A program made the position numbers and the translations under genes. A stretch of 64,000 bases of DNA from Limnochorda pilosa (GTDB lineage Bacteria > Bacillota > Limnochordia > Limnochordales > Limnochordaceae). The notes beneath the pieces were generated by a model that saw only the letters and a list, made by a program, of their open reading frames with translations, was not told the origin of the DNA and searched no databases. Below are positions 11,761 through 34,100 of this stretch, one piece after another (the stretch's first letter is position 1; every line of letters begins with the position of its first letter). Location: assembly GCF_001544015.1 (NCBI RefSeq), contig NZ_AP014924.1, positions 2,480,001 to 2,544,000 on the forward strand, in the 5' to 3' direction.

Positions 11761-11979
11761 TCAACTTTCACGGGACCAGTCCCGTCGCAGCGCCTCTACG
11801 TACCCTGCGACCTCCTCGACCCCGGTCAACTCCGGGTGGTCCTCAGCCTTCCAGCCGCCAGCGCTCTTTTCGACCGCCGTGCGAAAGCGTTCTCGCTCGT
11901 GGCCATCGGTCCCATTGTGGCTCATCCTCGCGAGCCTGGCCATCAAGGCGATCATTGCCAGGTGAGATCGCGCCGTCAA
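11761..11979 (-). pseudogene. Remnant of a ribbon-helix-helix antitoxin
   Basis: The last 40 or so codons read AGGWKAEDHPELTGVEEVAG and then YVEALRRDW, the recognisable C-terminal tail of CopG/RHH-type antitoxins (W-x-x-E-D-H-P-E-L). The DNA-binding ribbon-helix-helix that should precede it is absent; the first 30 residues are unrelated and the only start available is a TTG overlapping the GntR gene stop. It is best read as a truncated antitoxin gene. Confidence 0.5.
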
Positions 11980-12623
11980 CTCCTGACCAGCTCCCAGGAC
12001 TCGGTGATGGTCTCGCGCAGCGCTGCAATGTGGGCGCGCATCGCCTCTTCCGCCACGCTCCCGTCACCGGTCCTGAACGCCTCGACGATGGCGCGGTGCT
12101 CTTCGAGCGACTTCTCGGCACGGCCCGGAACAAGAATCGTGCGAAACTGGGAGCGCACGACCCTGGCCCGAAGCACCCTGATCAGTTCGGGGATCTTCTT
12201 GCTCCCGGAGGCCTCATAGATCCTACCGTGAAACCGAACGTTCGTCTGGGAGTATCGGTCGAACTCCCGCTTGTCGATGGCTTCTCGCATCACGTCGAGC
12301 AGGTCGTTCAAGTCGTCAAGCGTCTCCTGTGAGATGCGCTCGGCCGCCAAGCGGGCTGCTGCTCCCTCCAACACTTCGCGAGCAAGGAGGATGTCGACGA
12401 CGTCCTCGAGCGTCAGCTGCGAGACGATGGCGCCGCGGTTGGGGCCGATCGTCACCAATCCCTCCGCGCTGAGCCTTTCGAGGGCCAGACGGACGATGTG
12501 CCGCCCAACGTCATACGTTTCCGCCAGGTGCGTCTCAACCAGGTGCTGGGAGGGGGAGTACTCTCCATCCAGGATGCCCTGGCGGATCTGGTTGTAGACG
12601 TACTCGACACGGTTCCTCGACAT
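11976..12623 (-). CDS. GntR-family transcriptional regulator, FadR/FCD subgroup
   Basis: A 215-residue regulator. The N-terminal winged helix (residues about 5-70) shows VYNQIRQGILDGEYSPSQHL and LALERLSAEGLVTIGPNRGA; the C-terminal half is the all-helical FCD effector domain (DILLAREVLEGAAARLAAER, then RFHGRIYEASGS and EEHRAIVEAFRTGD). FCD regulators usually bind carboxylic acids. The ATG at 12623 has GGAGGA upstream. It is the last gene of the TAXI-TRAP-GntR operon, so the likely target is that operon and its divergent neighbour through the paired sites at 15602-15645. Confidence 0.93.
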   Translation of the reverse strand: MSRNRVEYVYNQIRQGILDGEYSPSQHLVETHLAETYDVGRHIVRLALERLSAEGLVTIGPNRGAIVSQLTLEDVVDILLAREVLEGAAARLAAERISQETLDDLNDLLDVMREAIDKREFDRYSQTNVRFHGRIYEASGSKKIPELIRVLRARVVRSQFRTILVPGRAEKSLEEHRAIVEAFRTGDGSVAEEAMRAHIAALRETITESWELVRS

Positions 12624-12691
12624 GGTCGTCCTCCTCGACGAAGCCCTCGACAGCGCCCATGACGACCCCAGGCTCCTTGATTGCCTGAGCC

Positions 12692-14566
12692 TTATGATGA
12701 CGGCATCCGGGCGGGGTCTATGCCAGGCGGATGGGCGCGTACCTGGAACAACCATACGAGCAAGAAGAGCCCCAGGCCTGCCACGTCCGTCACGATCCCC
12801 TGCCGGATCAGCAAGAGAGCGGCGGCGGCCGCCAAGACCCTCGCCCACCACCGGAGCGGCCCCTGCAGGTAGTTCATGATGGCGACGGCGAGGATGCAAA
12901 CGCCGATTGCCGCCGACGCGGTGCTGAGCATGACCGTATGCCAGGCTCCCTGCAAGAGCAGCGCGGGGTTTCGAGCGAAGAAGAACGGGATGATGAAGGC
13001 CGGCAGCGCCATCTTCAGCGCCGTCCAGCCCGTCCGATCGGGAGAACTCCCTGCGATCGAGGCGGCGGCGTACGACGCCAGCGCAACCGGGGGTGTGATG
13101 GCTGCCAGCACGCCGAAGTAGAAGATGAAGAAGTGGGCCGAAATCGGCTCGATGCCCATCCGCACCAGCGCCGGGACAACCAGGGAGACCAACAGCACGT
13201 AGACGACGGTCGTCGGCATCCCAAGCCCCAGGATGATCGAGGTGACCATCGCGAGCAAGAGCAGGATGAAGCTGGACCCCATGGAAAGGTCGACGAGGAT
13301 GCTCGCAAGGCGTGCCCCAAGCCCCGTCAGCTGCATCACACCCACGACGATGCCGGCCCCTGCTGCCACGACGGAGAGTGTGGCCGCGCTCTTTCCCGCC
13401 TCTTCCAAGGCTGCCGCGATCTGGTGGACCCCGACGCGCTTCACCACCAGGAGGAGCGCCGCCATCCCGAGACCCACCAACGCGGAGAGGGTGGGCGAGT
13501 AACCCGCGATCAGGAGGGCGTAGATGGCGAAGATGGGTACGATGTAGAGCCAGCCCTCCCGCAGGACCTTGACGAGCGGCTCGACCCGGTCGCGCGGCAT
13601 CCCTCTGAGGCCGCGGGCGCGGGAGTAGAGGTCCACCGCCATCCCTGCGGACAAAAAGTAGAGGACCGCAGGCAACGTTGCGGCGAGGGCGATCCGGCCG
13701 TAGGGGACGCCGAGGTAGTCGGCGACGAGAAAGGCGGCCGCGCCCATGATCGGGGGCATGATCTGCCCGCCGGTGGAGGCGACCGACTCGATCGCCCCGG
13801 CGACGTGCGGCGGGTAGCCGCCCAGCTTCATCGCGGGGATCGTGACCGATCCGGTGGTGGCAACGTTCCCCGCGGCGCTGCCCGAAACGCTTCCCACCAG
13901 GGCACTCGCGATGACAGCGACCTTGCCCAGCCCCCCCGTGTACCGGCCGGCCAGGGCCCGGGCGAAGCGCACCAAGACGTTGGAGCCCCCCACGGCCTGC
14001 AAGAGCGCCCCGAAGAGGATGAAGATGATGACGTAGCGGATCATGATCTTGAGCGGCGTGCCGTAAATCCCTGAGTAGGTGAGCAACAGGTGGCTCGTGG
14101 TCGTCTCGAACGAGTAGCCTCGGTGAAGCAGCAGACCCGGCATGGACCGCCCGAAGAGCGCATAGCCGACGAAGACGAGGCCGACGATGGTGAGCGGCCA
14201 CCCGACACTGCGGCGAATCGCGTCGAAGACCAGGACGACGGCAACGACCGACACTCGGATGTCGGCCGGGGTGAACGCGCCCTGTCGATTGATGATCGCC
14301 TGGTAGTTCGAGGCCACGTAGTAGCCCGTGACCGCTGCTGCCACGATGAGTGAGAGATCGATCAGGCCCGCCAGCGGGAGCGAGCGCCCCCGCGAGAACA
14401 GCGGCTTCTGGGCGAAGAGCCCCATCATGGTGATCGCCAGCACGATCGGCAGCTGCTGTTCGACCGGCAGCAGGTAGATGGGCTGCACGACGACGACGAA
14501 GAGGACCGCCGCGGTCCAGCAGAGGCTTCCGAAGACGCGGCGGGCCCGATCGATCACGTTCACCAC
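12692..14566 (-). CDS. TRAP transporter fused permease (4TM + 12TM)
   Basis: A 624-residue integral membrane protein combining the small DctQ-like and large DctM-like TRAP subunits, the form that pairs with TAXI binding proteins. Signature segments include ALVGSVSGSAAGNVATTGS, SVASTGGQIMPPIMGAAAF, and ILGLGMPTTVVYVLLVSL with ITPPVALASYAAA; the first three line up with the two other TRAP permeases in this window. Tandem GTG codons at 14566 and 14563 both overlap the TAXI stop. It should drive sodium- or proton-coupled uptake of an organic acid delivered by the TAXI protein. Confidence 0.95.
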   Translation of the reverse strand: MVNVIDRARRVFGSLCWTAAVLFVVVVQPIYLLPVEQQLPIVLAITMMGLFAQKPLFSRGRSLPLAGLIDLSLIVAAAVTGYYVASNYQAIINRQGAFTPADIRVSVVAVVLVFDAIRRSVGWPLTIVGLVFVGYALFGRSMPGLLLHRGYSFETTTSHLLLTYSGIYGTPLKIMIRYVIIFILFGALLQAVGGSNVLVRFARALAGRYTGGLGKVAVIASALVGSVSGSAAGNVATTGSVTIPAMKLGGYPPHVAGAIESVASTGGQIMPPIMGAAAFLVADYLGVPYGRIALAATLPAVLYFLSAGMAVDLYSRARGLRGMPRDRVEPLVKVLREGWLYIVPIFAIYALLIAGYSPTLSALVGLGMAALLLVVKRVGVHQIAAALEEAGKSAATLSVVAAGAGIVVGVMQLTGLGARLASILVDLSMGSSFILLLLAMVTSIILGLGMPTTVVYVLLVSLVVPALVRMGIEPISAHFFIFYFGVLAAITPPVALASYAAASIAGSSPDRTGWTALKMALPAFIIPFFFARNPALLLQGAWHTVMLSTASAAIGVCILAVAIMNYLQGPLRWWARVLAAAAALLLIRQGIVTDVAGLGLFLLVWLFQVRAHPPGIDPARMPSS

Positions 14567-15537
14567 ACGCCGACCTCCGAGGCGTAGCGAATGACGCCGG
14601 GATGGATGAGGAGGCTGATCTCCTCGGCAGCCTCCGGAGAGAGTAGCGCCGCCTGGTCACCGGAAGGGTGCGCCGCCTTGAGGGCGGGAACGTTGGCGAA
14701 GACCTGCTTCACCATCTCGTAGACCAGATCCTCGGGCAAGTCCGGCTGGAGGTAGATGATCGAGCGCACGAGCACGCCGTCCCCGTCTTCCTCAAGGTCG
14801 TACATGTCGGCCGGGATCTTGCCGGTGGCGTAGGGATAGGACGCCGCCGCGCGGAGCTTGGCCCCATCGATCGAGAGCAGGGTGACGTCCTCCCGCACGG
14901 TCAGGGATTCGATGGCGGGGAACGGCTGGCCGCCGACCATGAAGGCGGCGTCGATCAGGCCGTCGCTCAGGGCGTCCGCGGACTCCTGCCAGCCGAGGTA
15001 GGCCGGCGAGTAGTCGCCCCCCTCAAGCCCATGCGCCCTGAGGACCAACTCGCCGATGACGTTGGCGGACGAGCCTGGGCTACCCAGAGAGACGCGCTTG
15101 CCGCGCAGGTCTTCCACCGACTTGAGGCCGCGGTTCCGCAGCGCAACGAAGACGCCCATGCTCTGGTTCATGACCCAGCCGCCCGTCACGTTGATCTTCC
15201 GGCCGAAGGGGTCGTTACCCATGATGGCGTCGTAGGCGATGTTCTCGTTGGCGATCCCCACTTCGATCTGCCCGCTGGCAAGCAGGTTCATGTTCGCCAC
15301 ACCGCCGCCGGTCTCACGGGCGCTGAACCGGGTTCCCGGAATGGAACGGTTCCAGATGTCGGCCATTGCGACGCCGATCGGGTAGTAGGCGCCAGCTGGA
15401 GATGCCGTCCCGATGGTGACGAAGGGATACTCGCTGGCTGCCAGCGCCTGTGGGGTCGCAGCGGCGAACGCAAGGATCGCGGCGAGCATCGCGAGTCCGG
15501 GCCGCGCGTGCGTTGACTTCGGGTGAACACGAGTCAA
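14560..15537 (-). CDS. TAXI-family TRAP transporter solute-binding protein
   Basis: A 325-residue secreted protein. The TTG start at 15537 has AGGGAGG nine bases upstream and yields a typical signal peptide (RPGLAMLAAILAFAAATPQA). The mature chain opens TIGTASPAGAYYPIGVAMAD, the conserved TAXI binding-site loop, and continues with the family pattern LASGQIEVGIANENIAYDA and LRGKRVSLGSPGSSANVIGE. It overlaps the permease start by 4 to 7 bases. First gene of the operon; its promoter shares an operator with the divergent oxidoreductase gene. Confidence 0.94.
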   Translation of the reverse strand: MTRVHPKSTHARPGLAMLAAILAFAAATPQALAASEYPFVTIGTASPAGAYYPIGVAMADIWNRSIPGTRFSARETGGGVANMNLLASGQIEVGIANENIAYDAIMGNDPFGRKINVTGGWVMNQSMGVFVALRNRGLKSVEDLRGKRVSLGSPGSSANVIGELVLRAHGLEGGDYSPAYLGWQESADALSDGLIDAAFMVGGQPFPAIESLTVREDVTLLSIDGAKLRAAASYPYATGKIPADMYDLEEDGDGVLVRSIIYLQPDLPEDLVYEMVKQVFANVPALKAAHPSGDQAALLSPEAAEEISLLIHPGVIRYASEVGVW

Positions 15538-15577
15538 GAATCATCGCCTCCCTCGAGTGTATGGGGACGTCGCGTTC

Positions 15578-15607
15578 AAGCTAGCACAACCTCGACAGGA
15601 TTGTCAA
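15578..15607 (-). promoter_or_regulatory. Promoter of the TAXI-TRAP-GntR operon
   Basis: Minus strand: TTGACA (15607-15602) and TAGCTT (15583-15578) spaced 18 bases. The -35 hexamer is a perfect consensus and forms part of the left arm of the inverted repeat at 15602-15645. Start of transcription would be near 15571, about 35 bases above the TTG start. Confidence 0.6.
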
Positions 15608-15645
15608 CGACTTCGTCAAATATACCGTCAGCGATTTCGTTGACA
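15602..15645. promoter_or_regulatory. Divergent operator (inverted and direct repeats)
   Basis: TGTCAACGA at 15602-15610 and its exact complement TCGTTGACA at 15637-15645 form a 44-base dyad. Within it two direct copies of CARCGAYTTCGT can be aligned (from 15605 and 15629); each contains a short ACGA/GCGA-NN-TCGT palindrome. The outer arms contain the -35 boxes of both divergent promoters, so a bound protein could control both directions. The GntR regulator encoded in the minus-strand operon is the natural candidate; this is inference. Confidence 0.7.
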
Positions 15646-15668
15646 TGTATGTCACCTCGTGCTACACT
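15640..15668 (+). promoter_or_regulatory. Promoter of the oxidoreductase-aldolase operon
   Basis: TTGACA at 15640-15645 and TACACT at 15663-15668 with a 17-base spacer, close to the vegetative consensus. The predicted first base is near 15675 and the first ATG is at 15676, with no ribosome site between, so the message may be leaderless. The -35 box lies in the right arm of the operator. Confidence 0.7.
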
Positions 15669-15675
15669 TGATGTC

Positions 15676-16497
15676 ATGGAAACCACAGTCCCATCGCATC
15701 CCACTCAGCCCGTGAGTCTTGCCGTAGCGGTTCTGGGGCTCGGTGAAGCAGGCGCCGCGCTCGCGTCCGATCTGGCCGCGCAGGGCGTTCCGGTGCGGGG
15801 GTGGGACCCGGTCGTCAAAGAGGTGCCCTCTGTCGCGATCGTGTCCAGCGCCTCCGAGGCAGTGCGAGGGGCGGAGGTCGTCGTGAGCATCAACAGCGCC
15901 AGGGTGGCGCTCGAGGTTGCCCGCAACCTTGCCCCCGACCTCGGACCGGGACAGGTTTTCGCCGATTTCAACACTGCTTCCCCGAGCCTGAAGGAAAGCC
16001 TCCACGGAGTCGTGGCCGCCACGGGAGCCGAGTTCGTCGATGTCGCCTTGATGGCACCAGTGCCCGGCAGAGGTCTGAGGACGCCTGCGCTTGCCTCGGG
16101 AGTCGGAGCCAGGCGGTTTGCGGCGCTCTTTCAACCGCTGGGGATGCCCGTGACCGTGGTGGACGAACGCCCCGGAAGCGCCGCCTCCCGGAAGCTCCTT
16201 CGCAGCGTCTTCATGAAGGGCCTCGCCGCCGTCCTCCTGGAGGGGCTCGCCGCGGCGGAGAAGCTCGGCTGGGCGGAGTGGTACAAGGAGGAGGTCGCCG
16301 CCACGCTCCGTGAGAGCGACGGTTCACTCGTCGAGCGGCTCATCACCGGCAGCCGGAAGCACGCCGCCCGCAGGGTCCACGAGATGAACGCCGCGGCCGA
16401 GCTCTTGCTCGCGGTCGAGGTGCCGCCGCGGGTCTCGCTCGCAGCCGCGGAGGTCCTGCGGGAGCTTGCGCAGGGAGAGAATGCCGGTCGGACCTGA
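15676..16497 (+). CDS. NAD-binding 6-phosphogluconate-dehydrogenase-like oxidoreductase (DUF1932 type)
   Basis: A 273-residue beta-hydroxyacid dehydrogenase relative. The Rossmann nucleotide motif is AVLGLGEAGAALASDLAAQG (about residues 17-36), followed by the VVVSINSARVALEVA strand. The C-terminal part, KLLRSVFMKGLAAVLLEGLA and AAEKLGWAEWYKEEV, matches DUF1932, where the catalytic lysine of the family is expected. Substrate unknown; the operon suggests oxidation of a hydroxyacid intermediate. The ATG at 15676 directly follows the predicted transcription start. It heads the operon with the DUF6282, PIG-L and aldolase genes. Confidence 0.85.
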   Translation: METTVPSHPTQPVSLAVAVLGLGEAGAALASDLAAQGVPVRGWDPVVKEVPSVAIVSSASEAVRGAEVVVSINSARVALEVARNLAPDLGPGQVFADFNTASPSLKESLHGVVAATGAEFVDVALMAPVPGRGLRTPALASGVGARRFAALFQPLGMPVTVVDERPGSAASRKLLRSVFMKGLAAVLLEGLAAAEKLGWAEWYKEEVAATLRESDGSLVERLITGSRKHAARRVHEMNAAAELLLAVEVPPRVSLAAAEVLRELAQGENAGRT

Positions 16498-16526
16498 CCT
16501 GCGGGCCCTCGTTGGGACGGACTGTC

Positions 16527-17501
16527 ATGAAAACGACCGAAGCACGAAGGGAGCTCATGCCGATGCCACCCACGGTTCCCACGGAGTCCAAGCCCTCCGC
16601 CCGAGCCCGCGAACTGGTGATGGGTGCGTACGACCTCCACGTTCACAGCGGGCCGGACGTGATGAAGCGGCGCATCATGGATCTCGACCTGGCCAGGCGG
16701 TTCGCCGAGGTGGGACTGGCGGGATACGTGATCAAGTCGCACTACGTGGCGACCTCGGCCCGGGCGACACTGGTCAACGCTGCGGTCCCCGGGGTGAGGG
16801 TGCTCGGGTCGGTGGTTCTCAACGCGCTCTCAGGGGGCGTCACCCCGCTCGCCGTTGAGATCGCTGCCCGGGAGGGGGCCCGCCTCGTCTGGATGCCCAC
16901 CGTCGATTCGGAGAACGAGCGCCGGCTGCGGGGAGGGGCCACCGATCAGGCCAAACTGCCCTTCTGGGCCAAGCTCCAGGACGAGATGCGAGAGATGGGC
17001 ATGGAGGCCCCGCCCGTGGCCGTCGTTGACGAATCGGGCGCCGTCCTTCCAGAGACCAGGCAGGTCCTGGAGCGTATCGCCCATCACGGCATGGTCCTCG
17101 CGACCGGGCACCTGAGCCGGGACGAGATCTTCGCCGTCGTCGACGCAGCGCTCGAGGAAGGCGTGAAGCAGATCATCGTCACGCATCCGGACTTCCCCAC
17201 TCAGAACCTCTCGATGGAAGACCAGCGGATGCTGGCCGAGATGGGCGCGTACCTGGAACGGTGCTTCACCACCGCGCACACCGGCAAGATCTCGTGGGAG
17301 GAGATGATCACGCGCATCCGCGCCTCAGGCGTCGCGTCCAACGTCCTCTCGACGGACCTGGGCCAACCTGCCAACCCCCCGGTTGAGGACGGACTCGCCC
17401 TCATGGCCGACAAGCTGCTTGCCGCCGGGTTCTCAGAGGAGGAGGTTCACGCCATGGCCGTGCGCAATACCGTGAAGCTTGCGGGAGGGAGCCCCGCGTG
17501 A
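16527..17501 (+). CDS. DUF6282 family protein (amidohydrolase-like)
   Basis: About 324 residues. The metal-type motif YDLHVHSGPDV and later HPDFPTQNLS and STDLGQPANPP place it with amidohydrolase-like DUF6282 proteins; a homologue lies at 56390-57472. Function of the family is not established; hydrolysis or hydration of a small carboxylate or lactone is a reasonable guess. The start is uncertain: ATG 16527 has a weak site, while ATG 16563 has GGGAG nine bases upstream and would shorten the protein by 12 residues. Its stop overlaps the next gene in a GTGA. Confidence 0.8.
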   Translation: MKTTEARRELMPMPPTVPTESKPSARARELVMGAYDLHVHSGPDVMKRRIMDLDLARRFAEVGLAGYVIKSHYVATSARATLVNAAVPGVRVLGSVVLNALSGGVTPLAVEIAAREGARLVWMPTVDSENERRLRGGATDQAKLPFWAKLQDEMREMGMEAPPVAVVDESGAVLPETRQVLERIAHHGMVLATGHLSRDEIFAVVDAALEEGVKQIIVTHPDFPTQNLSMEDQRMLAEMGAYLERCFTTAHTGKISWEEMITRIRASGVASNVLSTDLGQPANPPVEDGLALMADKLLAAGFSEEEVHAMAVRNTVKLAGGSPA

Positions 17502-18229
17502 GCGAACCGCTGAAGAATCAGAAGAGCATCCTCGTGGTCGGCGCGCACGCAGCGGATTTCGTATGGCGCGCCGCCGGGGCCGTGGCGGTGGCCACCTCTC
17601 TCGGTGCCAGGGCGACGGTGGTCGCCCTCTCGTACGGAGAGCGGGGCGAGGCCGGCGATCTGTGGAAAGAGCCCAACCAAACCCTGGAGAACGTGCGGCG
17701 CATCCGCCGCGAACAGGCAGAACAGGCGGCCGCCGCGATCGGCGCCGAGTTCCGTTGCCTGGACCTTGGGGACTATCCCCTGGAGGTCGACCGGGAGGCT
17801 CTCGATCGTCTTACCGAGCTGATCCACGAGGTCGCACCGGACGTCATCTTGACCCACACCGAGAAGGATCCGTTCAACCCCGATCACCCGGTCGCGTGCG
17901 AGGCGGTGAAGAAGGCCCGGCTGCTCGCCGCTGGCTCGGGGGTGGTGAGCGCGTTCAAGACGCTGAAACCTCCCGCGCTCTACTGCTTCGAACCGCACCA
18001 GCCGGAGCTCTGTGGATTCGTGCCGACCACCTTCGTCGACATCACCCCGGTCTTTGAGAAGAAGCGGAAGGCGATGGAAGCAGTCGCCTCGCAGACGTAT
18101 CTGCAAAGGTACTACGCCGAGCTGGCGGAGCGACGGGGAAACCATGCGCGCCGTGCCTCGGGCGATTCGTCGATCAAGCACGCGGAGGCCTACCAGCGGC
18201 TTCTTCCCATGGTCGTGTCGGAGCTGTAG
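17498..18229 (+). CDS. PIG-L family protein, probable 4-oxalomesaconate hydratase (GalB-like)
   Basis: A 243-residue PIG-L/LmbE-fold zinc protein. The usual AHPDD metal motif is replaced by GAHAADFVWRAAG, the variant I associate with GalB, the hydratase of the gallate and protocatechuate 4,5-cleavage pathways. The distal metal ligand segment is DPFNPDHPVACEAV. The gene starts with GTG overlapping the previous stop and is followed 122 bases later by a GalC/LigK-like aldolase, which performs the next pathway step, supporting the hydratase reading over a sugar deacetylase. Confidence 0.7.
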   Translation: MSEPLKNQKSILVVGAHAADFVWRAAGAVAVATSLGARATVVALSYGERGEAGDLWKEPNQTLENVRRIRREQAEQAAAAIGAEFRCLDLGDYPLEVDREALDRLTELIHEVAPDVILTHTEKDPFNPDHPVACEAVKKARLLAAGSGVVSAFKTLKPPALYCFEPHQPELCGFVPTTFVDITPVFEKKRKAMEAVASQTYLQRYYAELAERRGNHARRASGDSSIKHAEAYQRLLPMVVSEL

Positions 18230-18351
18230 GACCGGCGGTGCTGGACGGGCGTGGCCGCGAGCAGACCGGGGCACGCCCGGGCGGCGTCGCCAGGATCTGG
18301 CGTGTCGCGTGACCCTGCCCGATCCATCGCCCACATGGAGGGAGTGGAGGC

Positions 18352-18996
18352 ATGAGCCGTCTCACCAAGGAGCATTTCGATCGTTTCGCCACCTACGGCG
18401 TGGCCACCGTCTACGAGGCCGCGGGACGCCTGGGTCTCATCGACATTCCTCTCACACCCCTCACCCCCGGGACGAGTGTGGCCGGACCCGCCCTGCCGGT
18501 CCTTTGCGGGCAGGGGGACAACCTGATGGTCCACGCGGCGATGGAGCGCATCAACCCCGGCGACGTCCTGGTGTTCACCATGCCCGAGCCCGAACCCGTC
18601 GCGCTGGTCGGCGAGCTCCTCGCCACGCAGGCCAACGTGCGCGGGGCGGCCGCCATCCTGGTCGACGGCTCGGTGCGGGACGTGAACGAGCTCCGGAAGA
18701 TGGGCCTTCCGATCTGGACGCGCTTCGTCCGGGTCCGGGGGGCGACCAAGAAGAAGGTCGGAACGATCGGCGAGCCCGTCACCGTGGGCGGAGCCCGGAT
18801 CGAGGTGGGCGACATCGTGGTCCTGGACGACGACGGTGCCGTGGTCGTCGAGAGGTCCAGAGCCCTTGAGGTGCTCGAGGCGTCCCGGGCTCGGCTTGAA
18901 CGCGAAAACCGGCTGAGGGATGAGTTCCAGTCGGGCAAGCTCTCCTACGACCTTCACGGGCTGCGGGAGGTCGTCGAGCGCAGCATGGCCCGATAG
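18352..18996 (+). CDS. RraA-like aldolase, probable 4-carboxy-4-hydroxy-2-oxoadipate aldolase (GalC/LigK-like)
   Basis: A 214-residue class II (metal-dependent) pyruvate aldolase of the HMG/CHA type. The active-site region is AILVDGSVRDVNELRKMGLP with the Arg-Asp pair, and the later GDIVVLDDDGAVVV segment is standard. It would split 4-carboxy-4-hydroxy-2-oxoadipate to pyruvate and oxaloacetate and may decarboxylate oxaloacetate. The ATG has GGAGTGGAGGC upstream. Close relatives act as RNase E regulator RraA, but RraA proteins are shorter and the neighbours argue for catabolism. Confidence 0.82.
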   Translation: MSRLTKEHFDRFATYGVATVYEAAGRLGLIDIPLTPLTPGTSVAGPALPVLCGQGDNLMVHAAMERINPGDVLVFTMPEPEPVALVGELLATQANVRGAAAILVDGSVRDVNELRKMGLPIWTRFVRVRGATKKKVGTIGEPVTVGGARIEVGDIVVLDDDGAVVVERSRALEVLEASRARLERENRLRDEFQSGKLSYDLHGLREVVERSMAR

Positions 18997-19201: not shown

Positions 19202-19241
19202 ATTATCACGATACGACTGGGATTATCACAGTGCGATAATC
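19202..19241. promoter_or_regulatory. Operator cluster upstream of the IclR gene
   Basis: ATTATCAC occurs at 19202-19209 and again at 19222-19229, exactly 20 bases apart. The second copy is part of a perfect inverted repeat GATTATC (19221-19227) / GATAATC (19235-19241); the first is followed by GATA, making TATCACGATA. These AT-rich sites sit 44 bases before the IclR start in a GC-rich gap and look like autoregulatory binding sites. Confidence 0.65.
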
Positions 19242-19284: not shown

Positions 19285-20151
19285 ATGAGTCCGGTACGTG
19301 GCCGACGCGGGCGGCTGACCAACGACCTGGATCCTTCGACGCCCCCGGCAGGCATCAAGGCCGTGCGGAGCGTCGAGCGCGTCCTCGACCTGCTGGAGTG
19401 CTTCTCCTTCGAGCAGCCGGAGTGGACCCTGAGCGACCTGGCCCGGCAGACCCAGCTTCCCACGGCCACGGCGCAGCGCCTCCTCCGGACCTTGCAGCGT
19501 CGTGGGTGGATCCAGCACTCGCCTCACACGGGCCGATACTCGCTGGGGCTGCGCTTCCTCGAGCTCGGAGGCCTGGTTCTCGCGAGCTTCCGGCTCCGCG
19601 AGAAGGCCCAGCCCCATCTCGATCACCTCTCGGAGGCCACGGGGCACACGGTGCTCCTCGGCACCTTGAGCGAGAGAAAGCTGGTCTACGTCGACCGCCG
19701 CGACAGCACGGCGCCCCTCCGGGTCGCCTCCGAGCTCGGACGGATCCGGCCGCCCACATACGGCATCTTGGGCAAGCTCCTCCTTGCCCACCTCGAGGAG
19801 CGCGAGGCCGAGAGCCTGCTGGCGGAGGCGCCCCTCCAGGCCCGGGCCACCAAGAGCATCGTGGATCCAGGCTGCTTCATGGAGGAGCTGCGGCGCGTGC
19901 GAGCGCAGGGGTACGCCTGCGCCGTCGACGAGACCGTGGACGGCGTGGCGGGCGTGGCCGCGCCCATCCGCGACCACACGGGAACGGTCGTGGCCGGTCT
20001 TGCCCTGCTGGTACCCACGCCGGGTTGGACCGACGAGCTGCGGCAGCGTCATGTAGAGGCCGTGGTGAGCACAGCGAGCCGCATCTCGGAGGCGATGGGA
20101 TACCGGGCCGACGCGCCCGGGAGTAGGTCTACGGCCAGTACGTTTCGATAA
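19285..20151 (+). CDS. IclR-family transcriptional regulator
   Basis: A 288-residue regulator. The N-terminal winged helix (about residues 24-85) has VERVLDLLECFSFEQPEWTL and LARQTQLPTATAQRLLRTLQ; the GAF-like effector domain (about 100-275) carries GTLSERKLVYVDRRDS, the cofactor-pocket region PPTYGILGKLLLAHL, and GVAGVAAPIRDHTGTVV. IclR members often sense aromatic or short acids. Unlike its neighbours it has AT-rich operator-like repeats ahead of it. A further matching half-site lies at its very end, before the EPSP-synthase-like gene, so it probably governs both flanking segments. Confidence 0.94.
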   Translation: MSPVRGRRGRLTNDLDPSTPPAGIKAVRSVERVLDLLECFSFEQPEWTLSDLARQTQLPTATAQRLLRTLQRRGWIQHSPHTGRYSLGLRFLELGGLVLASFRLREKAQPHLDHLSEATGHTVLLGTLSERKLVYVDRRDSTAPLRVASELGRIRPPTYGILGKLLLAHLEEREAESLLAEAPLQARATKSIVDPGCFMEELRRVRAQGYACAVDETVDGVAGVAAPIRDHTGTVVAGLALLVPTPGWTDELRQRHVEAVVSTASRISEAMGYRADAPGSRSTASTFR

Positions 20152-20245: not shown

Positions 20246-21568
20246 ATGAATCCGCTGCATTGTATCGCAAGGCCCGGCACCCTGCAGGGTGAGGCACGCA
20301 TCCCGGGATCCAAGTCGAACACGACCCGGGCCGTGGTCTTTGCCACCCTGGCCCCCGGGCGGTCGGTGATCCACAACCCGGTCACCAGCGTGGACTGCTT
20401 CTCCACGGTCCGGGTCTGCCGCCAGCTCGGCGCGAAGGCCCGGATCGAAGAGGGCACCTGGACCGTGGACGGGGTCGGTACGGAGCTCGAGCCGCCTTCG
20501 GACGTGCTGGACGTGGGCAACAGCGGCACGACCCTCTACATCCTCACGGCCACGGGCACCCTGCTGCGCCGCGGGCATGCCGTGATCAGCGGCGACGAGC
20601 AGATCCGGCGACGGCCCTCCGGACCGCTGGTTCGGGCGCTCACGGACCTGGGAGCCACGGCGTTCTGCACCCGGCCCGACGCGGGGGCCGCCCCCATCGT
20701 CGTCGGCCCGCGCCTTGCCGGCGGCCGTACCCAGCTTCCAGGCGTCAACTCCCAGTGGCTCACGCCCCTGCTCATGACCGGCCCCCTGAGCGAGAAGGGC
20801 GTCACCGTCGACGTGGACAACCTTCAGGAACGTCCCTACATCGCCCTCACTCTGGCCTGGCTCGACCGCCTCGGCATCCGCTACAGCCGAGAGGGGTGGC
20901 GTACCTTCCACGTGCCCGGCGGTCAGGCGTACGCGCCGTTCGAGGCGACCATCCCCGCAGACTGGGAGTCCGCCTGCTTCCCGCTGGTGGCCGCGGCCAT
21001 CACCGACTCGGAAGTCACCGTCCGCGGCCTGGACCTGAACGACCCCCAGGGAGACAAGGCCATCGTGGAGATCCTCCAGCGGATGGGCGCCGACATCGCG
21101 GTTCAGGGGGACGGCGGCATCCGGGTGCGCGGCGGCCGGACCTTGCACGGAACCGAGATCGACTGCGGCGACATCCCGGATGCCCCGCCGATCCTGGCCG
21201 TCCTCGGAAGCCAGGCCGAGGGCCGGACGGTCCTCTACAACCTGGGGGCCGCGCGGCTCAAGGAGACGGACCGCCCCCGATCCATCTACGAGGAGCTCTC
21301 GAGGATGGGCGCACGCATGCACTGGGAGACCGAGGATCGCCTGGTCATCGAGCGGAGCGACCTGCACGGCACCGAGATCGACGGCCGGCACGACCACCGG
21401 ATCGTGATGGCCACCGCCGTCGCCGCGCTCGTCGCCCGAGGGGCTACCAAGATCAGCGACGCCCAGTACGCGGCGATCTCGTTCCCCAACTTCTTCGAGG
21501 TGATGCAGTCCCTTGGGGCTCCCTTCGAGCTGGTCTCCGACGCGACGGCGGAACGAGAGACCGCATGA
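20246..21568 (+). CDS. EPSP synthase-like enolpyruvyl transferase (AroA family)
   Basis: A 440-residue two-lobed enolpyruvyl transferase. Recognisable ligand segments are IPGSKSNTTRAV (Lys23, Ser24, Arg28), GNSGTTLYILTA (91-102), DEQIRRRPSGPL, GVNSQWLTPLLM, DIPDAPPILAVLG, RLKETDRPRSIYEEL and DHRIVMA. The arginine that normally ends the N-[AS]-G-T-x-x-R motif is Tyr98. The gene lies between an IclR regulator and a TAXI/TRAP pair, away from any other shikimate gene, so it may act on a different hydroxyacid or be a regulated paralogue. ATG 20246 has AAAGGAG 12 bases upstream. Confidence 0.88.
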   Translation: MNPLHCIARPGTLQGEARIPGSKSNTTRAVVFATLAPGRSVIHNPVTSVDCFSTVRVCRQLGAKARIEEGTWTVDGVGTELEPPSDVLDVGNSGTTLYILTATGTLLRRGHAVISGDEQIRRRPSGPLVRALTDLGATAFCTRPDAGAAPIVVGPRLAGGRTQLPGVNSQWLTPLLMTGPLSEKGVTVDVDNLQERPYIALTLAWLDRLGIRYSREGWRTFHVPGGQAYAPFEATIPADWESACFPLVAAAITDSEVTVRGLDLNDPQGDKAIVEILQRMGADIAVQGDGGIRVRGGRTLHGTEIDCGDIPDAPPILAVLGSQAEGRTVLYNLGAARLKETDRPRSIYEELSRMGARMHWETEDRLVIERSDLHGTEIDGRHDHRIVMATAVAALVARGATKISDAQYAAISFPNFFEVMQSLGAPFELVSDATAERETA

Positions 21569-21653: not shown

Positions 21654-22649
21654 ATGCGACATCGCCATCTAGGGCAGGTCGTGGTCGCCATCATCCTGGT
21701 CGTCAGCCTGGCGGCGACCGCAGCCGTTGCCGCGGCCGCTCCGAAGCGCCGCTTCGTCATCGCCACCGCGGGCACGGCCGGCGCGCTCTACCCCATGGGC
21801 GTCGCCATGGCGGAGACCATCAACCGGCACTCGGATCGCTTCATGGCCAGCGCGGAGTCGAGCGCGGCCTCGGTGGCCAACCTGCGGAACCTGCACGAGG
21901 GGAACGTCGAGTGGGGCATCGCCCAGAGCGAGATCGCCACCTTCGCCTACAACGGGCAGGAGATCTTCAAGGGGCGCGAGATGAAGGAGCTACGGGCGCT
22001 CTTTGCCACCGTCGGCAGCTACTTCCAGGTCTTCGTTCCCGCCTCGAGCCCGGTCCGGAGCATCCAGGACCTGAAGGGGAAGCGCGTGGGCGTGGGACAG
22101 CCGGGTTCCGGCGGGGAGATCGACGCCCGCATGGTGCTCGCCCACTGCGGCCTCGACTACAAGAGCGTCACCCCCGCCTTCCTCACCGACGCAGAGATGG
22201 TGGACGCCCTCCGGGACGGGGACCTGGACGCCATCATGGTCACGCACCCGCTCAGGTCAGCTGCCCTCATCGACCTGACCACGTCCTTCAAGGTGCGCAT
22301 GCTCTCCGTCGACGACCCGGCCTTCTACGCGAGCCATCCCTTCTTCCTGCAGGCCACCGTACCCGCAGGGACCTACGACAGCGTCGACGTCGACGTCCGC
22401 ACCCCATTCAGCAGGGTGATCATGTTCACCACCACCGGGGCGGACTTCTCGGACGACGACATCTACCACCTGCTGGACACGATCTTCTCGAACCGGGAGG
22501 AGTGGCGCACCTCGCACGCTTCCGTCGACCGGACGGTGACCCTCGAGGCAGCCCTCGACGGGATCGCCGTACCCCTTCACCCCGGTGCGGTGAAGTACTT
22601 CCAGGACCATGGCTTGACGGTGCCTGCTGAGCTCCTTCCGGCGCGCTAG
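21654..22649 (+). CDS. TAXI-family TRAP transporter solute-binding protein
   Basis: A 331-residue secreted protein. AAGGAGGAAG precedes ATG 21654; the signal peptide ends near AAVAAAAP (about residue 29). The binding loop is ATAGTAGALYPMGVAMAE, and NVEWGIAQSEIATFAYNG and LKGKRVGVGQPGSGGEIDAR follow the TAXI pattern seen in the other two copies in this window. It is followed by a strong intercistronic hairpin and the matching fused permease. The ligand is unknown; the neighbours suggest an organic acid. Confidence 0.94.
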   Translation: MRHRHLGQVVVAIILVVSLAATAAVAAAAPKRRFVIATAGTAGALYPMGVAMAETINRHSDRFMASAESSAASVANLRNLHEGNVEWGIAQSEIATFAYNGQEIFKGREMKELRALFATVGSYFQVFVPASSPVRSIQDLKGKRVGVGQPGSGGEIDARMVLAHCGLDYKSVTPAFLTDAEMVDALRDGDLDAIMVTHPLRSAALIDLTTSFKVRMLSVDDPAFYASHPFFLQATVPAGTYDSVDVDVRTPFSRVIMFTTTGADFSDDDIYHLLDTIFSNREEWRTSHASVDRTVTLEAALDGIAVPLHPGAVKYFQDHGLTVPAELLPAR

Positions 22650-22669
22650 CCGGACTCGGTGGGTCGGGC

Positions 22670-22697
22670 GGGGACGGGGACTGAGGGCCCCGTCCCC
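22670..22697 (+). other. GC-rich intercistronic hairpin between TAXI and TRAP genes
   Basis: GGGGACGGGG (22670-22679) and its exact complement CCCCGTCCCC (22688-22697) form a 10-bp stem with an 8-base loop, lying 20 bases after the TAXI stop and 33 before the permease start. There is no T tract. Such stems between binding-protein and permease genes commonly protect the upstream message, raising binding-protein output over permease. Confidence 0.65.
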
Positions 22698-22730
22698 GGC
22701 CCTTGTCCAGCTTGCAGGGAGGTGTTCGGC

Positions 22731-24656
22731 ATGGCGGAGACAGCGTTTCGAACGGCGTGGCGGCGCGTGGTCGCCGGGATGGCCATCAGCCTTGCCCTGT
22801 TCCAGCTGGCCACGGCGCTTCTGGGGAACATCTCGCCCCTTCAGCAGCGCTTCGTGCACCTCCTGGGAGCCCTGATCCTGACCTTCCTGATCTACGACGG
22901 CAGGGGCCGGGCCACCCGACTGGAGCGCGGAATGCTCTCCAACGCCCTCCTGGCCCTGATCACCCTGGCGCTCGGCATCTACATGGTCGCGGCCTTCAGC
23001 CCCGACGCGGTGCTCCAGCGGGGCATCTGGGGTTTGAGCCCCGCCGAGGAGTGGGTGGGCCTCCTGCTTCTGGTGCTGGTGCTCGAGGCGGCCCGGCGGG
23101 CGGTGGGATGGCCCCTGGTCCTCATCGCCGGCCTTTTCGTCGTCTACGCGCTTGCGGGGCCCTACTTCCCCGCTTTCATCTCTCACAAGGGCTACAGCAT
23201 CTGGCGGCTGGTGGAGACCTTCTCATGGACGACCGAGGGCGTGCTGGGCGTGCCCATCGCCGCCTCGGCCACCTACGTGGCGGTGTTCATCCTCTTCGGC
23301 TCGTTCCTGGAGCGCCTCGGCGGCGCCCGCTTCTTCCTGGACCTCTCCCTCGCCGCGGCCGGCCACCAGAAGGGCGGACCCGCCCAGGTGGCCATCGTCT
23401 CCAGCGGGCTCATGGGGACCATCTCCGGGTCGGCCGTGGCCAACGTGGTGACCACCGGCGCCTTCACCATCCCGCTCATGAAGCGGATCGGCTACCGGCC
23501 CCACTTCGCCGGCGCGGTGGAGGCCGTCGCCTCCACCGGAGGCCAGATCATGCCCCCGGTCATGGGGGCCGCCGCCTTCGTCATGGCGGAGATGATCGAG
23601 GCGCCCTACTGGCAGATCGTGCTCGCGGCCATCCTGCCCGCGGTGCTCTACTACGCGGCCGCCGCGATCCAGGTCTACCTCCGCGCCGACCGGCTGGGCC
23701 TGGAGGGGATCCCCCGCTCGGAGCTCCCCCGCCTGGGCACCACCCTCGCGGCGGGCTGGTACCTGCTGATCCCCCTGGCGGTCCTCATCCACCTGCTGAT
23801 GGTCCTCCGCTACTCCCCGACCCGGGCAGGAATCTGGTCGCTGCTCCTGATGGTGGCCGTCAGCTCGGCCCAGTACCTCTGGAAAGAGCGTCGCTTCCCC
23901 TGGCGGGAGATCCTGGAGGCCCTGGAGAGCGGAGGCCGAACGCTGGTGGTGGTGGCGACCGCGTGCGGTGCGGCCGGTATCATCATCGGCGTCGTCTCTC
24001 TGACCGGTATCGGCGTCCGCTTCTCGCAGCTCGTCATCGACCTGGCCGGCGGCATGCTCCCCCTGACGCTGCTGTACACCATGCTCGCCTGCATCGTGCT
24101 CGGCATGGGCCTCCCCACCACAGCCGCCTACATCGTCACCGCCGTCCTGGCGGCTCCCGCCCTGGTAGAGCTGGGTGTTCCGCTGCTCGCCGCGCACCTT
24201 TTCGTCCTCTACTTCGCGGTGCTCTCCTTCATCACCCCGCCGGTGGCCATCGCCGCCTACGCCGCAGCCGGGCTGGCCGGTGCCAACGCCATGCAGACCG
24301 GATGGACCGCAATGCGCCTGGGCCTGGCCGGGTTCATCGTGCCCTTCATGTTCGTCTACAACCAGGCCCTCCTCCTCGCGGGCCCGTGGGCTCTGGTGCT
24401 TCTTGCGGTCGCCACGGCCGCGGCGGGGGTGGCCGCGCTGGCCGCGGGCGTGGAGGGATGGCTCTTCGGCCCGGTTCCCGGGTGGCAGAGGCTCCTCCTG
24501 GCAGGGGCCGCCATCCTGCTCATCGTACCCGGCTGGGCCACCGACCTGGGTGGCCTGGCGCTGGGGCTGGGCGTGTACGCCCTGCGGCGCCGGCACCTTC
24601 GAGCCGCATCGCCTGCCGCGGAAGCACGATCCGCCCAGCCGCCGGCGCAGGGATAA
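22731..24656 (+). CDS. TRAP transporter fused permease (4TM + 12TM)
   Basis: A 641-residue membrane protein, the partner of the TAXI protein upstream. ATG 22731 follows GGGAGGTGTT. Family segments: GLMGTISGSAVANVVTTGAF, AVASTGGQIMPPVMGAAAF, and VLGMGLPTTAAYIVTAVL with FITPPVAIAAYAAAG. The C-terminal tail after the last helix is short, basic then Ala/Pro-rich. Last gene of the plus-strand run, facing the chemoreceptor gene with a 34-base gap. Confidence 0.95.
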   Translation: MAETAFRTAWRRVVAGMAISLALFQLATALLGNISPLQQRFVHLLGALILTFLIYDGRGRATRLERGMLSNALLALITLALGIYMVAAFSPDAVLQRGIWGLSPAEEWVGLLLLVLVLEAARRAVGWPLVLIAGLFVVYALAGPYFPAFISHKGYSIWRLVETFSWTTEGVLGVPIAASATYVAVFILFGSFLERLGGARFFLDLSLAAAGHQKGGPAQVAIVSSGLMGTISGSAVANVVTTGAFTIPLMKRIGYRPHFAGAVEAVASTGGQIMPPVMGAAAFVMAEMIEAPYWQIVLAAILPAVLYYAAAAIQVYLRADRLGLEGIPRSELPRLGTTLAAGWYLLIPLAVLIHLLMVLRYSPTRAGIWSLLLMVAVSSAQYLWKERRFPWREILEALESGGRTLVVVATACGAAGIIIGVVSLTGIGVRFSQLVIDLAGGMLPLTLLYTMLACIVLGMGLPTTAAYIVTAVLAAPALVELGVPLLAAHLFVLYFAVLSFITPPVAIAAYAAAGLAGANAMQTGWTAMRLGLAGFIVPFMFVYNQALLLAGPWALVLLAVATAAAGVAALAAGVEGWLFGPVPGWQRLLLAGAAILLIVPGWATDLGGLALGLGVYALRRRHLRAASPAAEARSAQPPAQG

Positions 24657-29821: not shown

Positions 29822-31187
29822 GCCGGGGACCCTCCGATCCTGTGTGAGTGCTTTTGAGACCAAGCTGGTAACTCCACCCGCCTAGCCCTACTCCCCCATT
29901 TCGTCGGAGCCGCCAGAACTCCTCGCAGACGTCGCGGAACTCAGGCCATTCTACGGGACTGTAGTGCGCCAGGGTGTTTCGTACGCGCCGCATCCGGTCT
30001 ACAGCCTGTCGAAGCTGGCGGAGCCACGGTACCGTCCGGAAGCGGTCAAGGAACTCCACTATATCACCGAACTCGACTGCGCCGCAGTCTTCGTTGGGTG
30101 GCTCTCTGGCCACCTCAGCATCCCTTGTTCGGGCAAACTCCGCCCACTCGGTGAAGCGCTGGCCGAGAATATGACAGACCTCGAGGCGGTAGCGGTCCAG
30201 CATGGGGAGCAAGATCGCGGCCTGACCCCGCCAAACCCGGTGGTTGAGGTCCGCCGTTCGACCCAACAGGGCCAGAGCGGCCGAATGGACAACGGGTCCT
30301 TCGTCGTGATCCCAGGTCAAGAGCCCGGTGCTCCATAGCAGCCGTTCAGCAGAAGAAGACGGAGACTCGGGCAAGTGTTCAGCCCTCGCCGTGTGTGCAA
30401 GTGCCTCCTCGCGGGCCGAGGAACCTTGCGTCGCGTCGAGCACGGGAGAGAAGGCCCGAGCCTCCGCGTACTCGCGTACCACCCGAAGCTGGTCCCGGAT
30501 GGACGAATCAATGTCAGCCTTCTCCATCATCCACGCCAGGCATTCGAGATCTGATCCTGCGAGATTCGACCATACCGCCTCACCCCACAAAGCCTTCGCG
30601 CCCGAGATCCCATGGTCTTCGAAGAGGGCGGCAGCCACGACGCGTGTTTCTCGAGAGGTAACCCAGCCCCGGTACCACGCCTTCGCGAGAAAAGCATCCT
30701 CAGCCATCTCATCCAGCGCCGCGATGGCTGCCGCGTCGCGTACCGGGATGAGAAGCGCCTTACGCTCGGCAGGCATGATGTCCGGCCGCTTGCTGTACCC
30801 TACCCACTCCGAAATGAAACGCTTCCACTGACCCAGCGCTCCGTCCGAAGCATTCTCCAGGTCGCGCAGAATGAGGATCTCCGGAACCGTGTCGGCTTCG
30901 TAAAGCGATGCAACAGCATTCCCTGATGGAGGGGTGGCGTCCAGATGATATCGGCTAGCAAGCCACTCGATAGGCCATTCCGTGTCAAGCGGTACGTGGC
31001 TCGTCTCCAGAGTTGCCCGGCCTCTGCACGTTTCTTCAAGGGCGGAAAGCAGCGACTCTATGGGGGCAGGCGCGGGCAGAAACCAGAGCACGCTGCGACC
31101 CCTGCAGAGATCGTCGGCCAATACCTGAAGGCGGCGCTGGGGCCTCGGGAGCCTCAGCGCTTCCACGGGCAAGGTCCAGGGGGTCAC
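29802..31187 (-). CDS. Unknown protein with C-terminal HEPN-like motif, partner of the giant ATPase
   Basis: About 461 residues from the GTG at 31187, which overlaps the stop of the giant ATPase gene (GTGA); an upstream ATG at 31256 is possible but overlaps by 73 bases. Residues 1-200 look like a degenerate nucleotide-binding fold: RSVLWFLPAPAPIESLL sits where a P-loop would be but lacks G-K-T, and EILILRDLENAS resembles a Walker B strand. The C-terminal helical region ends MRRVRNTLAHYSPVEW, in which Arg403-x4-His408 fits the R-x4-6-H signature of HEPN ribonucleases. I do not recognise the whole protein. Context: second gene of a three-gene operon with STAND ATPase and zinc ribbon, beside an IS and TA debris. 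Confidence 0.7.
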   Translation of the reverse strand: MTPWTLPVEALRLPRPQRRLQVLADDLCRGRSVLWFLPAPAPIESLLSALEETCRGRATLETSHVPLDTEWPIEWLASRYHLDATPPSGNAVASLYEADTVPEILILRDLENASDGALGQWKRFISEWVGYSKRPDIMPAERKALLIPVRDAAAIAALDEMAEDAFLAKAWYRGWVTSRETRVVAAALFEDHGISGAKALWGEAVWSNLAGSDLECLAWMMEKADIDSSIRDQLRVVREYAEARAFSPVLDATQGSSAREEALAHTARAEHLPESPSSSAERLLWSTGLLTWDHDEGPVVHSAALALLGRTADLNHRVWRGQAAILLPMLDRYRLEVCHILGQRFTEWAEFARTRDAEVAREPPNEDCGAVEFGDIVEFLDRFRTVPWLRQLRQAVDRMRRVRNTLAHYSPVEWPEFRDVCEEFWRLRRNGGVGLGGWSYQLGLKSTHTGSEGPRHGRRPV

Positions 31188-34100
31188 GAAGGGACCTTCT
31201 TCCCCAGTACGAACCGTGCGGCCATAGGCTCCACTGACAAGCTTCCATCGCGCCATTCGAGCAAACCCATCCGGCGCAGCGAGTGCGCCAAGGCGGATAG
31301 CTCGCGACGCGCAAGACGCTTCAGGGCAGCGTCGTCCGACAACTCCGCTGCTTCCCAGAGATCTTCATCGGCCACGTCCCCAAGAGCGTCCACGAGCTGC
31401 AGAAGGGCCTGTCCATTCGGTACATCCTGAAGGCCAAGCGCCTCGATGAATGCGGTCGCTGTACCCCCGAGGTTCTGCTGGAGAGTCTCGTCGACGTCCT
31501 GAATGATACTCACCAGCGTTCTCGACTTTCGGGTCTTTGCACGTTGGGCGTGATCCAACAGTTGATCCAGTAGCCAAGGCCATCCCCCAGTTGTGGCCAT
31601 GACGCGCGAGGTGATCTGGTCGGTTGCTGTGAGATCCAGATCAGCCAGAGTCGCCTTGACGACCGGGTGGGTCCAGCGCCGAAGCGTGACCGACGTTCCT
31701 GGAACCCTCGGCACCCCCTCTTCCTCCGCACCATCTTCAAGCATCCACTGTAGAATCTGGCGGGGCCGAAGGAGCACCACCAATCGGCCCACCGTCTGAG
31801 ATGCGCCAGAACCCATCCGATGCTCCAGCCAGTCTTGCATGTCTTTCAGGGATCGCTGGAGCGAACCGCTCAGAAACGCCGGGTGCGAGCCATATGCTAC
31901 GACGGTCAAACGCCCGGATTTCAGCTTCCGGCGTTCGGACTCCAGGAAAGCGCGCAGCTGCCCTAGATCTGTGCAGTCGTCGGGCAAGGTTCTCACCCAT
32001 TCGCGCGTGTCGGTAGCGTCAGCCATCGTGGTCGCAGCCGCCAGCACGTCCTGAACCCTACCGATGCTCAGGGCGTCGCTTCCGAAAACAACGCCAACCC
32101 CACACGGGCCGCCCAAGAGGTCACTGGCCTGACCGATCGTGAGCGGCCCGAACGCCTTCCTGCGCCCAAGATCGAATCCAAACACCTGCTGGCGGTAATC
32201 AGGCTCGCCCGGAGCAGACCGGCGCGAAATGGAGTCTAGTTGCTCCCGTATCCACTCAATGGACCCGAGTCCCCGCACAACGTTCCCATTGCGCAGGCGG
32301 TAGTGGCCAGACGGCATGCGGATGAGAACGCCCAGGCCCCGGAGCTCTTCGAGATACGACCTGAACTCATCGTCAGGTTCCTTACTAAAGCCATTCGGCC
32401 AGCGCTCGTGGGCCAACTGCCAGAGCTCCGCCGGGGTGAACTCTCGACGATAGCCGTCTTGGTCGTTCTTCTGAGCCAGAATCATCGCGTAGACTAGCGC
32501 CCTGTATCTGTCGTCCAGGTCGAGGGTCCACTCGAACCGCTGAACCAGGAGGGCTCGCAGGGCTGGGCGAAGATAGAGCGTTTCTACGTCCTTCATCGTG
32601 ACGGTGAACGGTGGGTCGTCAGTGCGTTGGCGGACTAGATGCACCAGTTCCTTGCAGAAGAGCTGAATGAGCGCCGGGTGGTAGTTGGTATACGACAGGA
32701 TCCGAAGGACGACATCGCGCGATTCGAATTCAAAGCCCAGCGCGTGCAGAGGCTCTTGAACCAGAGCCATGGCGGCTCTGGGTTCCAGCGGGCCAACGAC
32801 CACTGGAGGGCCAAGATGAGCGAAAGGCTGGTTGCTCAATCTCTCAAAACGCTGCACGCTGTGGAGGCCGGAGAATACCACGCGAAATCGGCCCCCCGAC
32901 TGATCTCTGATCCGCTTCAGCCGGTGGACCTGCGTGAAGTCGCTTCTCTGATCCGCGTCCAGGAAGTAGTCCGATTCGTCGAAGAGGAAGGTGACGCGCA
33001 GGTCTCCGTCACCGGCGAACAGGTCAAGAATCCGGTCTACCAAGCGCTCCGGATCGTGGCTCGTCCGCTCGTCGACAAGCCGCGAAGCGGTCAGTGCGCG
33101 CCGCACTCGCACCCAAACCTGCTCAGCCGTAGCCTGCCTTCCAATCTGCCTTATGTCTTCATAGAATGCATACCACCTGCGATCGGGACGGTGGAGTTCG
33201 CGTTGCATGACTGAGAGCAGCACCGATTTCCCGAACTGCCGGCCACCGTAGATGAAGGTACTTCCCCGGGGCTGCAGGAGTTCTGCAAGCTCCCTGCGGC
33301 GACCCTTGAACATCTCTTGAGGTACCGCGCCTTGCGGTTCGTACGGGTTCGCATGACCCCAGGCAATACCACAACTCACGGCAGTATGCAGGTGAAGCCC
33401 GCGTCGGGTGGCAAGGAAGTAGAGGAGTAGCTCGTCCACCAAGAGCGCGGTGAGGCCCGCGACCCGGCAGCGGTAGCTCCACTCCTGGCGCTGCAGAAGG
33501 CTCAGCCTTCCCATGTAGAGGACGATGGGGTGGCTTCGAGCGACTCCGTATGCATCCAGAATCTGGGACACCGCATCGTGCCCGGGCTGCCCAAAGACCA
33601 TCACGACGTCATACGTTCCGCCGCGCTGTGACCCGAATTCTGGTAGAGGACAGTCTGGGCCGGCCGCCATTCTGACCTTCAGCAGCGCCCTATCTGCGTC
33701 ACGTCTTACGATCTGGGGCTTGGGGATCGCGAATCCAATGTGGTCCAGGACCTTCGCAACCTGGGGGAGCAACTCTGTCCGAACCTGGCGGGCCTTTTTC
33801 AACTCCAGGTAGGCAGCCAGGGACTCCGCCGATTTCTGAGCTTCCTTACCTGGAACAGCCTTCATGCTCAGCCCCGCGAATTCCTCTCTCTGGGCGATCG
33901 CATCGATCGCATGCAGCCTGCGTCCCCATCCCGCGGACTGCTCATCTGAGAGCTGGTTGAGTAGCTGCGGGATAGCGCGCTTGAATTGCTCTACGGGTCT
34001 TTCGTCTCTCTCATCTGCTTCGGCACCGTCAACGTGTTCCCATTGGGGATCCTCTCCCAGCCTGATCACTTGCTCCGCGTGGGTGAGATACTCGTCAGCA

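Follow-up and report, generated by a model that had tools for sequence, protein, structure and literature searches.

The 64,000-nucleotide stretch of Limnochorda pilosa DNA analysed here (the window) contains a gene of the EPSP synthase family, the subject of this report, which encodes a protein of 440 amino acids in an uninterrupted frame. As a preliminary description of this DNA had stated, the gene lies between an IclR regulator and a TAXI/TRAP pair, and no further shikimate gene is found near it (Table 1). The TAXI protein scores about 360–424 bits against the TAXI proteins encoded beside orthologous genes, as compared with 119 bits against the other TAXI protein of the window. The palindrome in front of the regulator gene is, judged by its sequence, a candidate IclR operator, and similar TTTCACA..TGAAA palindromes are located near iclR in two related loci (L021 and L024).

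Table 1. Features of the EPSP-synthase-like gene and its surroundings; positions are those of the window.
Feature	Position	Strand	Remarks
Palindrome GATTATCACA-G-TGCGATAATC, 21 bp	19221..19241	.	just 5' of the IclR start; candidate operator
IclR-family regulator	19285..20151	+	nearest NCBIfam models PcaR/PcaU/PobR and KdgR, both below cut-off
EPSP-synthase-family gene	20246..21568	+	440 aa, uninterrupted frame
Tyr98 codon TAC	20537..20539	+	aligned with E. coli AroA Arg100
TAXI-family TRAP solute-binding protein	21654..22649	+	profile match
TRAP transporter fused permease	22659..24656	+	profile match

The genes upstream had also been read as parts of a catabolic locus, a reading that finds no support, as only the IclR gene, the EPSP-synthase-like gene and the importer are conserved across loci. 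The RraA, PIG-L, DUF6282 and DUF1932 genes were discarded as module parts, being present in none of the other inner-clade loci described below. They belong to a separate adjoining locus (11976–18996). Here a GntR/FCD regulator and another TAXI-TRAP pair, both encoded on the minus strand, face genes for a DUF1932 dehydrogenase, a DUF6282 protein, a PIG-L protein and an RraA-like aldolase. The aldolase exceeds the cut-off of NF006731 (4-carboxy-4-hydroxy-2-oxoadipate aldolase), and the locus resembles a GalB/GalC-type hydroxyacid pathway. Further along the window, 31184–37243 encodes a protein of 2019 aa, apparently a large ATPase that is so far uncharacterised, for which the sole match is a weak one to AAA_22.

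By fold and chemistry, the protein encoded at 20246–21568 is a member of the enolpyruvyl-transferase superfamily. It matches Pfam PF00275 (EPSP_synthase) with 315 bits (cut-off 22.8) and the TIGR01356 aroA equivalog with 381 bits (cut-off 287). Its AlphaFold model (pLDDT 95) is a closed EPSP synthase with a TM-score of 0.93, by target length, to 1g6s; the top PDB matches of the model are all EPSP synthases, the nearest ones with shikimate 3-phosphate (S3P) bound. The superfamily fold and chemistry are shared with MurA, but the Cys-loop of MurA (GGC..RP) is here the Cys-less GDEQIRRRP, and the score of 89 bits lies below the murA cut-off of 393. In a tblastn search of plasmids, the matches listed were all ordinary AroAs, none of them above 36%.

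The genome of L. pilosa is available as one contig of 3.817 Mb (99.95% complete) and holds five PF00275 genes, namely the gene in the window, three murA genes and a canonical aroA. Thus, the check for another aroA proposed in the preliminary description has a positive outcome: the canonical gene (L001), located at 350.6 kb, retains Arg100 and Lys411 and scores 416 bits for aroA, and since it is present the gene in the window is a paralogue. The genes aroB, aroK and aroC are found at 2756–2758 kb and aroE at 3788 kb. We also note the presence of three murA genes (L002, L003 and L005) in this single genome.

The roles of single residues in E. coli AroA are here taken to be those generally known from the 1g6s structure. 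The Arg-to-Tyr change that had been claimed for the active site is real: the region of the N-[AS]-G-T-x-x-R motif reads N92-S-G-T-T-L-Y98. Further, Ile occupies the position of Lys411, a residue replaced across the whole lineage to which the protein belongs. On the S3P side, S169 corresponds to N168, S197 to E195 and N336 to A335, with the S3P contacts S170 and K340 retained and with Glu at position 197 also present in likely genuine AroAs. The equivalents of Lys22, Ser23, Arg27, Asn94, Gly96, Arg124, Ser170, Gln171, Tyr200, Asp242, Asp313, Lys340, Glu341, Arg344, His385 and Arg386 are all conserved, including the entire PEP-site and catalytic set (K22, R124, Q171, D313, E341, R344 and R386). 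Nine inner-clade proteins were compared with 34 relatives from the aroC-linked group, and 26 alignment positions show a fixed difference between the two sets. Ten of these belong to the ligand shell, which covers 53 of the 418 columns (hypergeometric p = 5e-4). The p-value is only indicative because the shell, comprising everything within one residue of the ligand-contact positions, was defined by us from the E. coli contacts. The shell changes include Asn25, Thr27, Asn168, Trp171, Gln194, Trp240 and Ala335, and the fixed changes around the ligand contacts are mostly on the S3P side of the pocket. Which domain of EPSP synthase binds which group is described in PMC8983318.

The tyrosine had been regarded as a sign of new function, and on this point the phylogeny gives a different answer. 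The protein is nested in a broad lineage of AroAs whose hallmarks are Glu at S197 and Val or Ile at K411, with members in Planctomycetota, Spirochaetota, Hydrogenedentota and some Bacillota. In much of this lineage the gene is directly 5' of aroC, often together with aroK, and most of the lineage genomes examined hold no second AroA. Across the lineage the R100 position is occupied by Arg, Tyr, Asn, Cys, Ser, Phe, Thr or Val. Tyr-type genes adjoin aroC in L036, L038 and L016, and Tyr is present in all nine Spirochaetota genes L154–L160, L162 and L163, the genomes of which all carry aroC. Because Tyr, Asn and Cys occur in aroC-linked AroAs, Arg100 is not a truly AroA-defining feature, and Tyr98 was discarded as a marker of new function, since ordinary AroAs in the parent lineage commonly have Tyr there too. 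The loss of the K411 equivalent was discarded as well, as it is common to the parent lineage and to haloarchaeal and Methanothrix AroA. Two Spirochaetota MAGs (G407 and G408, with L042 and L043) carry a Tyr-type AroA and, unlike their close relatives, have no aroC that could be found in the assembly.

The lineage is the direct parent of the clade treated below, to which it is mostly about 40–50% identical and with which it shares Glu197, the loss of K411 and, frequently, Tyr at R100. The two differ in that many parent genes are located immediately 5' of aroC or aroK, or else encode the sole AroA of a genome with aroC, and in that the main group of the lineage has Thr or Ser at 169, Gln at 336 and Phe at 243, whereas the clade has Asn, Ala and Trp. 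The wider sister branch includes members that are the sole AroA in aroC-bearing genomes (Treponema), and the sister-branch gene L016 adjoins aroE, aroD and aroC. As these AroAs are altered in a similar way on the S3P side, with Glu for S197 and various residues for N336, changes of this kind do not by themselves exclude S3P.

Relatives of the protein at 63–74% were found in eight of the 398 sampled Bacillota genomes, not counting L. pilosa itself, and one further relative at 60% is on a Desulfobacteraceae contig. The protein, these relatives and two more at about 50% make up a clade of 11 rows, which has an SH-aLRT support of 100, the truncated L014 having been left out of the tree. Searches of the phylum of G399 (Spirochaetota) and of the classes of G123 and G078 did not add any member above 60%. 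Directly 3' of the gene, each of the ten inner-clade loci has an importer: a TAXI or TAXI-TRAP importer in the window and in L020, L021, L022, L026 and L027, and a LIV-type ABC importer in L023, L024, L025 and L033. The exchanged systems, TAXI-TRAP and LIV-type ABC, are non-homologous, and as the importer types are interleaved on the tree, there were at least two importer exchanges while the gene and the regulator stayed. An IclR gene of the same cluster is present in nine of the ten loci (the copy in L033 is divergent and 1.8 kb away), the one without being L027, which holds a truncated gene. The branch at about 50% (L034 and L164) has TAXI-TRAP with LacI, and the more distant L019, L037 and L044 are found with TctCBA-type genes. 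Importers of this kind do not adjoin the gene in any of the aroC-linked sister-group loci, and no linked aroK, aroC or other aro gene was found in the inner-clade loci. Pfam scans of further neighbours (L020, L022–L027, L033 and L034) revealed no shared catabolic enzyme. In the Desulfobacteraceae locus (L033, 8008–10895), a UbiD-family decarboxylase gene is located 42 bp 5' of the EPSP-synthase-like gene, with UPF0261 and IclR genes divergent; the UbiD neighbour is possibly a hint at an aromatic or unsaturated acid.

The draft genomes G230 (93% complete) and G078 (97%) carry an intact orthologue, and no aroB, aroC, aroE, aroK or canonical aroA was found in these assemblies, from which clustered aro genes could vanish with one contig. 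Three congeners of G230 are also without detected aroB, aroE and aroK, which argues that the loss is true. Much the same absence was seen in two weaker cases, G148 (93%), where the copy is a 5'-truncated fragment and one marginal shikimate-kinase-family match exists, and the Desulfobacteraceae genome G398, of unstated completeness. Between the genes of G230 and G078 (L008 and L009), dN is 0.065 and dS 1.59, giving a dN/dS of about 0.04 and thus strong purifying selection in genomes that would have no use for EPSP. G078 holds two such genes with different importers, TAXI-TRAP for L009 and TctCBA for L019. In six other genomes, including the complete one of L. pilosa, the paralogue occurs together with a canonical aroA; in G123 and G049 the paralogue is accompanied, at another place in the genome, by an aroB-K-C-E-A cluster that includes its own aroA.

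Based on these data, our preferred explanation, to which we assign a probability of roughly 0.7, is that the clade protein is an enolpyruvyl-transfer enzyme recruited outside chorismate synthesis that acts on an imported hydroxy-carboxylate. A different reaction on an imported acid is probable because an importer always adjoins the gene and because the gene persists in apparently pathway-less genomes. Under this explanation, an enzyme with the EPSP synthase fold would have been recruited out of the shikimate pathway, its gene would be grouped with an IclR regulator and a high-affinity carboxylate importer (TAXI-TRAP here, LIV-type ABC in some relatives), and it would act on the compound that the importer brings in. 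The retained equivalents of S23/R27, D313 and K340 suggest that the ligand is a hydroxy-carboxylate, and the replacement of S169 by Asn, S197 by Glu and N336 by Ala suggests one that differs from S3P in lacking its 3-phosphate. Of the two options in the preliminary description, a functional paralogue under carbon-source control or an enzyme for a new hydroxyacid, the paralogue with its own adjoining regulator stands and the new hydroxyacid is favoured, on account of clade members persisting in genomes without aroB, aroC, aroE and aroK; the argument from the Arg-to-Tyr change falls away. Since the module contains no other conserved enzyme, the protein may work in the direction that yields PEP (enolpyruvyl ether + Pi to PEP + hydroxyacid), for which it alone would suffice. 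This direction carries less weight, and the forward reaction of PEP with an imported hydroxyacid is about equally possible. As a tentative and rather doubtful extension, this single enzyme could make up a catabolic route: phosphate would cleave the imported enolpyruvyl ether to PEP and a hydroxyacid, such that an EPSP synthase homologue works in reverse in nature and supplies PEP to the cell directly, with the importer swapped among TAXI-TRAP, LIV-ABC and possibly TctCBA.

The score above the aroA equivalog cut-off and the presence of the residues for EPSP synthase chemistry are a counterpoint to the preferred explanation. They would fit a second genuine EPSP synthase that makes EPSP from S3P under certain conditions, for example from imported shikimate-type compounds or as a glyphosate-insensitive copy, and the retained PEP-site and general acid/base residues agree with such an isozyme, as does the sister-branch L016, which is part of an aroE-AP_endonuclease_2-aroD-aroA-aroC-ABC-importer operon resembling assimilation of imported shikimate-type compounds. 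We nevertheless consider an isozyme unlikely, as clade members are under purifying selection where aroC and aroK were not found and EPSP could be neither formed nor consumed, and as none of the inner-clade loci has a linked aro gene. More improbable still is an ordinary AroA spread by transfer, with the aro genes merely missing from the assemblies: the drafts are 93–97% complete and the aro genes are clustered in relatives, such that one lost contig removes several, but the same absence recurs in two families and in the three further G230 relatives, and the coexistence with a canonical aroA in six other genomes also speaks against it. The minimal module of regulator, EPSP-synthase-like protein and importer would be compatible with a regulatory or substrate-sensing pseudo-enzyme that tunes uptake and does not catalyse, a possibility we regard as very remote given that the enolpyruvyl-transfer residues (equivalents of Lys22, Arg124, Gln171, Asp313, Glu341, Arg344 and Arg386) are conserved.

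EPSP synthase, the target of glyphosate, is among the best-studied enzymes, and an aroA gene is commonly read as proof that the shikimate pathway is present and used to mark sensitivity to glyphosate. The clade resembles AroA (EC 2.5.1.19; PF00275/TIGR01356) in fold, length, PEP-site and general acid/base residues, and differs in that its gene is unlinked to, and apparently independent of, the shikimate pathway and is coupled to IclR and a carboxylate importer. A precedent for the recruitment of an EPSPS/MurA-family enzyme to another acceptor is NikO/PolA, the UMP enolpyruvyl transferase of nucleoside antibiotics, which unlike the clade gene belongs to biosynthetic clusters and uses a nucleotide acceptor. 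In the open literature searched, we found no description of an EPSP synthase homologue coupled to TRAP, IclR or TAXI. As the clade annotates as aroA above a curated cut-off in genomes without a detected pathway, it would be misread in metabolic models and glyphosate surveys. Further, the search for the new acceptor becomes concrete, as the binding protein of the importer can be screened for its ligand, which should be the substrate of the enzyme.

Two more gene arrangements are noted here. On L029 (1–8614, from G374, a genome in which aroB was not found), an operon consists of aroE, a gene for an AP_endonuclease_2 protein, aroD, a Tyr-type aroA, aroC and an SBP5 ABC importer, and looks like one by which a compound of the shikimate or quinate type is assimilated after import. 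On a Streptomyces plasmid (L120, 2956–5774), an aroA is immediately followed by a homologue of 2,3-bisphosphoglycerate-independent phosphoglycerate mutase, with hypothetical genes as further members of what may be a small biosynthetic cluster.
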